Shown piece by piece: positions 426 to 3,898 of a stretch of DNA of 64,000 nt. Each line of letters opens with the position of its first letter. Position 1 is the first letter of the stretch. Position numbers and translations under genes: made by a program. This DNA is from Candidatus Scalindua sp. Lineage in GTDB: Bacteria; Planctomycetota; Brocadiia; Brocadiales; Scalinduaceae. Location of the stretch: assembly GCA_021776915.1 (NCBI GenBank), contig JAIQZU010000043.1:1-64000 (forward strand). Reading direction: 5' to 3'. The notes under the pieces were generated by a model. The model did no database searches. It was not told where the DNA came from and worked only from the letters and a program-made list of their open reading frames with translations.

Positions 426-2672
426 CTACCATCTTTCCAGCCTTTCCAGCAAAAACAATATCTCAGCCGCATCGGTATAATCCAATCCCGCAGCATAAGC
501 CAACTCTCTTTCACGAGAACCTGTAAGGATATCTTGTAACTTTGAAACCAGCAGTTTTCCAGACTCAGGTATATTCGGGTCGCCGGCTACCTCGTCCAAT
601 TGTTTTTTAATCTCCTCCGGCTTCTGTTGCTTCAAGGCATTCTCAAACAAGGCACATAACTTCCCTCCCGGATTCTGATCTTCCCCACCACTACGGCGGC
701 AGGCAAGAAACAATTGGATGGCCTGTTCCCTTGCCCGGGAAGCTGCCTCCTGATTGCCATCAGCCAGTTCAATTTCACTCAGTTTATCCCACGCTCTCCA
801 GGGTTCAACATGATAACCATATGGTTTGAAGCATTCTATAGCCCGCTGGATCTCCTTTCTGGCCTCACCGAAACGTTTAAGCGTGATTAATGTAATGGTA
901 AGATTACCACGGACGCGTCCCTCATTTGACATGTCATTGATCTCTGTATATTTCTCTGCTGATTGCCTGAAGGAAATCACTGCATCCTCAGACCTTCCTG
1001 TTTTAGCGTAAAGGTTTCCAAGCCGCCCAAGGCTCCTGGCCTCATCCAACGGATTTTCCTGCTGTACATTAAAGGCCAGCGATTGCTGGAATGCCTGCTC
1101 AGCCTCTTCAAATTGACCTATTTCCTCAAACACAGCGCCTGTCTGCTGCAAGGCAATTGCAGCCATGTTCAGATCTCCGAGATTCTCAAATATTTCCCTG
1201 GCCTCGTTATGTGCCTTGATAGCTTCTTCGTACTTTCCCTGAGAAAAACGTACTGTCCCGAGTTGGCCTTTTCCTACTGCGACATGCCTTTCACTTTTTA
1301 TTTCTTCGGCTACGTGTATGCTTTCTTCATAAGCGGCAGCAGATTCATCTAAGCGCCACATATCCAACAGGCACTCTCCTTTCCTGGCAAGTGATGCAGA
1401 TACCATCTTTCCGGCAGCATCATCATTTTTATCTCCGGCAAGTAGTTGAAATCGTCTGTGTGCCTCATTGATTGATTTAATGGCGTCCTCAGCAGCGCCT
1501 CCCAACCTCAATACATTTCCAAGCAGTAAATTAGCCGCCGCTATATCATAATCTGCCCCCTCATATGATCCCTCACCTGCCTTCATACATTTATCCAGCA
1601 GTATCTGAGCAACGCTTAATGACTGTGGAAAATTTCCGGCATCCAATAACCTTTCAACATACATATTCAAGGCTTCAAATCTGGCATGCTCCCAATTCAC
1701 TGATTTCTTCTCTTCCTCCTCCATAACCGCCTTTACTTTTGCCAGGGTTTGTGGTTTGTTCACTTGCATAGTCAATTGTTCAAGTATTACCGCCCTGTCC
1801 AGAGTTATCTCAGGGATTGCCTGCGCCTGTACATGTTCCAGAGACTTTATCAGATTAGGCAGTTCCAGCAGTGTTAATGAATCTGCAATCTGTGAATCCT
1901 CAGATTGTTGCTTATACAGAAATTCGCTCAACTGCCGCAAGCTTTCAGTCCATCTGGCCTTGCTTCTGCCAAGTGAGGCTTCATCCAATTCCTGATAGAG
2001 ATAAGGACACAGGGCAGGATGAAAGCGCAGGAAACCATAAGGCATTGGTTCTGCCAGGCCAATCTCCATTAATTCACTAACCAGCAAATCTCTTTCCGCT
2101 TCATTTAACTCCAAAACGTTTGTCACATTTGAAATACTGCCGCCTCCCTGAAACACACCCAGTGGCTTGATTTTTTCCCGGATTTCCGGTGACAGCCGGC
2201 ACAGGGAGTTTTCTACACCGTCAAAAAGCGATTGTTTCTGTTTGTCAGACAGGCGTTCTCCCAATGCAAGGAATATCAGCGAGATGGCTTCACTCATGCC
2301 GCCGGAACCAATCTGAATCTTTGTCCCAATCGGTTCCTTCCCAAAAAACGTACTTAATACTGCAGGCTCAACACCTTCCATAACTAATGGAATCACCTTG
2401 TAATCGTCCCCTCCTTTATCTCTCACCTCCAGCGCATATTTTGTCTCTTTCAAAACACTGAGAGAATTTATCGTCTCAGGACTAATCACCACAAAAAACG
2501 CACGCGCCTCTTCAATCGCTTGTTTTGTTTCCGGTTCTAATTCTTCACCAGGGGCTGACTCACGTGAATCAGTACGTATGTCCAACCCCTCGTTCTCCAG
2601 ACTCTTGCGCAGGATACTTGCAAACTCACTATCTTTGGTACTGTGTGATATGAAGATATAATTTATTTTCAT
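426..2672 (-). CDS. TIR domain / winged-helix-like / TPR repeat protein
   Basis: A 748-residue protein in three parts. Residues 1 to about 140 form a TIR-type domain: it opens with a beta strand and an FISHSTKD box, and has KET at 75-77, where Glu76 aligns by eye with the catalytic glutamate of NAD-cleaving TIR domains. Residues about 145-260 look like the winged-helix segment that follows the NTPase in STAND proteins. From about 330 onward there are many TPR-like helical pairs. I see no Walker A or NB-ARC motif between TIR and TPR. TIR/TPR proteins are known in bacterial immunity and signalling, and a defence role is an inference here. It stands alone, convergent with the HD-GYP gene and divergent from the cysteine synthase-like gene. 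Confidence 0.8.
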   Translation of the reverse strand: MKINYIFISHSTKDSEFASILRKSLENEGLDIRTDSRESAPGEELEPETKQAIEEARAFFVVISPETINSLSVLKETKYALEVRDKGGDDYKVIPLVMEGVEPAVLSTFFGKEPIGTKIQIGSGGMSEAISLIFLALGERLSDKQKQSLFDGVENSLCRLSPEIREKIKPLGVFQGGGSISNVTNVLELNEAERDLLVSELMEIGLAEPMPYGFLRFHPALCPYLYQELDEASLGRSKARWTESLRQLSEFLYKQQSEDSQIADSLTLLELPNLIKSLEHVQAQAIPEITLDRAVILEQLTMQVNKPQTLAKVKAVMEEEEKKSVNWEHARFEALNMYVERLLDAGNFPQSLSVAQILLDKCMKAGEGSYEGADYDIAAANLLLGNVLRLGGAAEDAIKSINEAHRRFQLLAGDKNDDAAGKMVSASLARKGECLLDMWRLDESAAAYEESIHVAEEIKSERHVAVGKGQLGTVRFSQGKYEEAIKAHNEAREIFENLGDLNMAAIALQQTGAVFEEIGQFEEAEQAFQQSLAFNVQQENPLDEARSLGRLGNLYAKTGRSEDAVISFRQSAEKYTEINDMSNEGRVRGNLTITLITLKRFGEARKEIQRAIECFKPYGYHVEPWRAWDKLSEIELADGNQEAASRAREQAIQLFLACRRSGGEDQNPGGKLCALFENALKQQKPEEIKKQLDEVAGDPNIPESGKLLVSKLQDILTGSRERELAYAAGLDYTDAAEILFLLERLERW

Positions 2673-2959: not shown

Positions 2960-3898
2960 ATGAGTGGAGAGATAGAAAGTCTGGATATTGACGAAATTAT
3001 TGATAATACCGTTTTGCGATACGTAGGGAATACACCGTTGATAAAGGTCAAAACTCCTCAAGGCATATCAGATAAAGTGGAAATATACGCAAAACTAGAG
3101 TATTTAAATCCTGGCGGTTCTGTAAAAGATCGCCCTATATTGCGGATGATAAAGGAGGCAATAAAATCCGGAGAACTGACTCATGACAAGGCTATTCTGG
3201 ATTCTACCTCCGGAAATGCTGGAATCGCTTACTCAATGATAGGCGCTGCGCTGGGATATGAAGTGGATCTGGTTATACCGGGTAATGCAAGCGAAGAGAG
3301 GAAACGGAACATCCGGGCTTACGGGGCAAGGATTATCACTACAGATCCAATAAAGGGATATGATGAAGCGATAAGAAAGGCACATGAGATGTTAGAAGAA
3401 AATCCGGATAAATATTATATGCCGGATCAATATGCAAACAAATACAATCCAATAGCCCACTATGAAACAACAGGCAAGGAAATTCTGGAACAAACCGAGG
3501 GTAAAGTTACACATTTTATTTGCGGTGTTGGTACAGGCGGCACTGTAATGGGTGTTGGAAGAAGGCTGAAGGAGTACAATCCGGATATAAAAATTTATGT
3601 CATTAAGCCTGAAGACTTCCCGGGGATTGAGGGACTGAAGCCGATGGGCGCAGAATATATAAAACCAAAGATTTACAGGGAAGACTTTATAGAAGATCAC
3701 ACATTCTTTATAACCTCTGAAGAGGCAAAGGACACATGTAGTACACTGGCTAGAGAAACGGGACTCTTTGTCGGACAGTCCTCAGGTGCATTTATGAAAG
3801 GGGCATTAGATCTGGCAGTAGAGATTAATGAAGGTATGATTGTTACTATATTCCCTGATACCGGCAACAGATATTTCAGTACACAATTATGGGACTAG
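2960..3898 (+). CDS. Cysteine synthase family PLP enzyme (CysK/CysM-like)
   Basis: A 312-residue fold-type II PLP enzyme. PGGSVKDR at 51-58 carries the PLP lysine (Lys56), followed by the STSGNAG substrate loop and a GVGTGGT phosphate-binding glycine loop. The length fits O-acetylserine (or O-phosphoserine) sulfhydrylases, which make cysteine from sulfide. Cystathionine beta-synthase relatives share these motifs, so the acceptor substrate is not settled. The ATG at 2960 follows a weak purine-rich stretch. A consensus promoter and structured leader lie upstream, and the TPR lipoprotein follows five bases after the stop, suggesting one transcript. Confidence 0.85.
   Translation: MSGEIESLDIDEIIDNTVLRYVGNTPLIKVKTPQGISDKVEIYAKLEYLNPGGSVKDRPILRMIKEAIKSGELTHDKAILDSTSGNAGIAYSMIGAALGYEVDLVIPGNASEERKRNIRAYGARIITTDPIKGYDEAIRKAHEMLEENPDKYYMPDQYANKYNPIAHYETTGKEILEQTEGKVTHFICGVGTGGTVMGVGRRLKEYNPDIKIYVIKPEDFPGIEGLKPMGAEYIKPKIYREDFIEDHTFFITSEEAKDTCSTLARETGLFVGQSSGAFMKGALDLAVEINEGMIVTIFPDTGNRYFSTQLWD

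Follow-up and report, generated by a model that had tools for sequence, protein, structure and literature searches.

A TIR–winged-helix–TPR protein without an NTPase in anammox Planctomycetota, probably a STAND receptor that lost its switch

Domain organisation and the winged-helix region

The window analysed here is a 64,000-nucleotide stretch from the genome (G000; 89 contigs totalling 3.79 Mb) of an anammox bacterium resembling Candidatus Scalindua. Positions 426..2672 on its minus strand encode, from an ATG start, a 748-aa TIR–winged-helix–TPR protein belonging to a set of 12 orthologues, and a divergently oriented gene of the cysteine synthase family lies beside it (2960..3898, plus strand). 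The TIR domain (residues 1–143; 2244..2672) was recognised by Pfam TIR_2 at residues 6–104 (E = 1e-18; 68 bits against a cut-off of 28) and was resolved in the AlphaFold2 model, and profile matches to AbTIR, SPARTA TIR-APAZ and Cat1 in the PDB likewise place the protein among TIR proteins. Beyond the junction D143/K144 (2243..2244) follow, all on the minus strand, a STAND-type winged-helix domain (WHD; residues 144–245; 1938..2243), a helical arm delimited in the AlphaFold2 model (residues 246–324; 1701..1937) and a TPR superhelix resembling LGN and kinesin light chain (KLC) (residues 325–735; 468..1700). TPR families of Pfam matched the protein from residue ~390 onward (TPR_12, E = 1e-25), and comparison of this part with the LGN fold gave a Z of 26.9; the superstructure-forming sensor repeats of a STAND protein are present, as TPRs. 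The full-length AlphaFold model (mean pLDDT 76) contained the TIR domain up to about residue 136, a helix at 143–157, a low-confidence HHH-beta-beta winged helix up to about residue 217, and then the TPR superhelix.

The interval between the TIR and TPR parts was also modelled separately and compared with NB-ARC and STAND folds, as the initial annotation had proposed. Residues 105–345 folded alone reached a mean pLDDT of 51 (60–77 over the wHTH core) and yielded a predicted STAND-type WHD and no NTPase fold. The best Foldseek matches of the winged-helix region were CED-4 and Apaf-1 (E 0.015–0.09, weak if taken alone). VIA-align superposed residues 143–245 on residues 373–482 of CED-4, 246–399 of MalT, 314–412 of PH0952 and 385–491 of NRC1 with Z values of ~9–10, which are only moderately above background, given that winged helices of the MarR/CodY type reach 7.5–9; the assignment to the STAND type therefore leans on collinearity with long homologues, in which the corresponding WHD follows NB-ARC. 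Because a sequence profile of this region retrieved only chance matches from the PDB, identification of the WHD itself is based on the fold comparison together with this collinearity. A winged-helix domain of the STAND type is thus predicted at moderate model confidence.

Absence of the NTPase and relationship to long homologues

The window protein lacks the P-loop with Walker A and B that marks the STAND NTPases (NB-ARC/NACHT). The search with NACHT and NB-ARC profiles suggested by the initial annotation was carried out and returned zero matches to NTPase families at E ≤ 1 in Pfam, NCBIfam and PADLOC; residues 105–345 of 11 orthologues matched no NTPase model at E ≤ 1, and the Walker A pattern G-x4-GK[ST] occurred in none of the 12 short orthologues. 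Since the modelled TIR domain stops at about residue 136 and the winged helix begins with the helix at 143–157, no space is left for an NTPase. A degenerate NTPase concealed between the TIR and TPR parts was considered and ruled out by the model, the profile and motif searches and the fold alignment of the WHD. The first reading of the gene, that the winged helix comes straight after the TIR domain without a Walker A motif, was therefore borne out. Its premise that a STAND switch is the norm in bacterial TIR–TPR proteins was overstated, as the same genome encodes a second TIR–TPR protein without an NTPase. This protein (L067:2510-4309, minus strand), encoded on contig C14 of that genome, has a TIR domain with a long run of canonical TPRs behind it, and it is not orthologous to the window protein.

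The short gene was found with an intact N-terminal part in 12 of 98 related genomes, its own included, and in a thirteenth (G007) the contig terminates within it. The 12 orthologues come from separate assemblies, are 747–756 aa long and share at least 57% identity. Two remoter proteins (G004:C52 and G021:C61) aligned to the window protein in two separated blocks, residues 3–152 and 127–314, and have the architecture TIR-CHAT-NB-ARC-WHD-TPR (CHAT E = 1e-24; NB-ARC E = 6e-8). When 392 genomes of the phylum were searched with a profile, long forms also came to light in G153 (two copies, one ending at a contig edge), G199, G317 and G167, and the short form did not turn up again beyond its own family. 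These planctomycete homologues comprise ~1460–1740 codons; L043, L044, L059, L061 and L062 are complete N-terminally, and L058 and L060 are partial or broken. All five complete N-termini carry Walker A (G-x-GG-x-GK[ST]), the CHAT His (FDGHG) and Cys (L[ED]ACQ) motifs and the TIR Trp. The G004 copy (L043:3866-8272, minus strand), from the same genus as the window genome, is interrupted by an in-frame stop downstream of the first TPRs, with the remainder continuing in frame. In the G199 copy (L060:5000-9107, plus strand), the TIR start lies in another frame and the end of the TIR domain and the start of CHAT are missing, which points either to an internal deletion that broke the gene or to an error of assembly.

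The long forms hold 707–755 residues (CHAT and NB-ARC) between the TIR end and the WHD start and the short form holds zero, D143 being followed directly by K144, and the two forms are collinear on both sides of this zero-length junction. The initial likening of the protein to STAND receptors was apt, as its nearest homologues hold a true NB-ARC, together with CHAT, precisely at this position. Beyond the orthologues, the top match of its TIR domain in the 98 genomes was the TIR domain of a long protein (103.8 bits), and unrelated TIR proteins scored at most 31 bits. In a midpoint-rooted tree of the C-terminal part, the short forms constituted a single clade (100/100) that joined L043 and L044 (99/99), separately from the remaining long forms. 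The short form is best understood as having arisen by deletion from a long receptor. Because the tree has no outgroup root, a short ancestor that acquired the CHAT–NTPase block is formally compatible with it; the direction from long to short is one that, for want of an outgroup, we infer, and it is supported by the wider spread of the long forms, which occur in six families of the phylum, with the short forms confined to one. No split partner homologous to the missing CHAT–NTPase block was found in the window genome, in which the two CHAT proteins have other architectures. A partner acting in trans is unlikely, since none homologous is encoded there and the sole full-length one among the 17 genomes of the family (G004) contains the in-frame stop.

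TIR residues, selection and genomic context

Glu76 (codon 2445..2447), the glutamate of the WxxxE position, is invariant in the 12 short and five long TIR domains and aligns with the catalytic Glu77 of SPARTA TIR-APAZ, with which it shares the surrounding VLKE tetrapeptide. By alignment, then, the glutamate expected on the C helix of TIR NADases is present, and Glu76 holds up as the NADase-motif residue first proposed; NADase activity is possible on these grounds. Ser9 and His10 are also invariant in the short TIR domains. Invariance of Glu76 by itself says little, because 23 of the 136 TIR positions do not vary. Four residues ahead of Glu76, a Trp is present in all five intact long-form TIR domains and in none of the 12 short forms, and Ser72 takes its place in the window protein (codon 2457..2459). 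Asp35 (codon 2568..2570), equivalent to AbTir D167 by our own alignment of the DxxxxxG segment rather than by superposition, is replaced by Val in five of the 12 orthologues. The substitutions W204A and D167A weaken the NADase activity of AbTir, and W204 is required for 2'cADPR (PMC11374754, PMC10937652). TcpC does not need the equivalent residue, W240, for its NADase activity (PMC11374754); in SPARTA TIR-APAZ, E77A serves as a catalytic-dead control and TIR self-association is required for activity (PMC10474274). The missing Trp was at first favoured as proof of a dead NADase, a view dropped since SPARTA TIR-APAZ is active without it. Judged from these residues, a cyclic-ADPR product is unlikely, because every short form lacks the WxxxE Trp, and non-cyclising NADase activity of the window protein is plausible, with orthologues that lack Asp35 as weaker candidates. 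Given the loss of Asp in five and of Trp in all 12 short forms, some or all members of the clade may have a TIR domain without catalytic activity.

The short form is under purifying selection. Pairwise NG86 estimates of dN/dS (ten pairs) were 0.09–0.19 for the whole gene and mostly 0.04–0.2 in the WHD and TPR parts, and were laxest in the TIR domain (0.20–0.41), where conservation is also lowest among the domains (58% mean identity). The gene is usually single-copy and mostly syntenic. The divergent cysteine synthase family gene adjoins it in 10 of the 12 genomes, usually along with a TPR lipoprotein gene and, at a greater distance, mqnB plus a gene resembling mqnD; the last label is our own reading of its sequence, for which NCBIfam had no match. 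In another genus (L011:12331-14703 and L017:12324-14693), the gene occupies a different locus, followed on the same strand at less than 100 bases by an ExtM-like multihaem cytochrome gene. The TIR gene is absent from this locus in G002 and G005, whose cysteine synthase is 94% identical to that of the window; conserved as it is, the gene is thus dispensable, two close sister genomes being without it. At the corresponding position beside the cysteine synthase, both carry a PqiA-family gene (L085:5869-6549 and L086:6197-6877).

The survey of genomic neighbourhoods found the homologues outside defence contexts and in no evident defence island; the neighbours were metabolic where these were read, and the flanks examined contained nothing recognised as a defence gene. 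PADLOC returned matches to the TIR or the TPR part only and no whole-protein system, the best TIR matches being TIR proteins of short Argonautes, and the match to ThsB of Thoeris was weak and partial. Carriage by phages or plasmids was also dropped as a candidate: the window protein had no phage match, and the single plasmid match covered the TPR part only. The defence role initially assigned to the protein is thus not supported, given the recurrent cysteine synthase neighbour, the usual proximity of mqnB and the flanks free of recognised defence genes.

Proposed origin and function in relation to known systems

Our results are best explained by a STAND receptor from which CHAT and the whole NTPase were lost as one block and which selection has since kept as a partner-gated, nucleotide-independent TIR protein (probability roughly 0.6). 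A TIR-CHAT-NB-ARC-WHD-TPR ancestor would have dropped CHAT and the NTPase (~710–750 residues) in a forebear of these anammox bacteria, leaving the TIR domain fused to the WHD. With no nucleotide exchange, control would pass to partner binding, concentration or oligomerisation. LGN and kinesin light chain, which the TPR part resembles, bind peptides; capture of a partner is therefore the simplest input to assume, TIR–TIR contact would be the output, and nucleotide-independent TIR signalling gated by such capture seems the likeliest mode of action. The LGN/KLC-like superhelix could bind a peptide or another protein as its partner, the WHD together with the helical arm might stay as a rigid connector, and partner-driven clustering or release of the TIR domains, rather than ADP/ATP exchange, could activate them, as in other TIR proteins without an NTPase. 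The activated TIR domain might then either hydrolyse NAD+ via Glu76 in a SPARTA-like manner, yielding ADPR and not a cyclic product, or serve as a scaffold. It is a bolder and rather doubtful suggestion that an NLR-like STAND protein was converted in this way into a receptor in which the WHD took over the coupling of TPRs to TIR, and exchanged its part in defence for a conserved cellular role of another kind in anammox planctomycetes.

A non-catalytic adaptor, in which the TIR domain is now a scaffold recruiting TIR proteins or other partners and the TPRs pick the client, is possible but less probable. The loss of Trp throughout and of Asp35 in five short forms, the low conservation and lax dN/dS of the TIR domain and the second TIR protein of the genome, as a possible partner, would fit such a role, but Glu76, Ser9 and His10 have remained invariant, and SPARTA TIR-APAZ and TcpC illustrate NADase activity that does not depend on the Trp. 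Truncated NLRs can modulate full-length NLRs, and the short protein could in principle antagonise the long TIR-CHAT-NB-ARC receptors or serve as a decoy for them; its TIR, WHD and TPR parts share a common lineage with these receptors, one of which accompanies it in G004. This is very improbable, as a full-length long form was found in only one of the 17 family genomes, where it has the in-frame stop, and the short form is retained in 11 others that have no full-length long form.

An ordinary TIR–TPR protein, made by independent joining of TIR and WHD–TPR parts rather than by deletion, would be in keeping with the NTPase-less TIR–TPR fusion in the window genome and with the unrooted tree. It is scarcely credible, however, since both halves match the same long homologues collinearly and the junction has no leftover linker. 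That the gene is a decaying relic or an assembly artefact, as its absence from G002 and G005 might suggest, has a negligible probability: in 12 independent assemblies the reading frame is uninterrupted and varies little in length, and the dN/dS values, well below 1 for each domain, already refute decay for most lineages.

The ATP/ADP switch is the standard explanation of NLR and STAND receptors. A clade in which the switch appears to have been lost as a clean block while effector, WHD and sensor were kept would mean that the architecture can outlast the switch, and could provide a natural test of how NLR-type receptors can work without it. NTPase-less TIR–TPR proteins are not new in themselves; the switch-deleted STAND protein with its WHD retained is. 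A limited search of the open-access literature found no description of a TIR–WHD–TPR protein arising by CHAT–NTPase loss and no paper naming TIR with Scalindua and anammox.

Several known systems share parts of this design. STAND proteins of the MalT/PH0952 type likewise place an arm and a TPR sensor superhelix after the WHD but possess the NTPase switch and have no TIR domain. SPARTA TIR-APAZ has, like the window protein, the VLKE glutamate motif and no Trp at −4, and it is active although its TIR protein carries no NTPase domain, but its partners are Argonaute and APAZ, and it has neither a WHD nor TPRs. SARM1 (ARM-SAM-TIR) also has its TIR domain governed by a repeat domain without an NTPase, although its repeat and oligomerisation domains are of other kinds and a WHD is absent. 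An 824-aa 'Tetratricopeptide repeat protein' in the PDB (9m0n/9umd) is comparable by name and by a TIR profile match at residues 4–94. The inactive STAND modules iSTAND and iSTAND2 of ternary conflict systems (PMC8195603; PMC7159879) retain an eroded NTPase fold, whereas the short form is without the fold altogether. The closest counterparts are the long Planctomycetota proteins, which have homologous TIR, WHD, arm, TPR and C-terminal parts (up to 42% identity in the TIR domain and 35–41% in the C-terminal part to the short proteins compared) but carry, between TIR and WHD, a CHAT domain that includes the His and Cys motifs and an NB-ARC that includes Walker A, and also keep the TIR Trp. The long and short homologues therefore offer a direct comparison for the contributions of the NTPase, CHAT and the TIR Trp.
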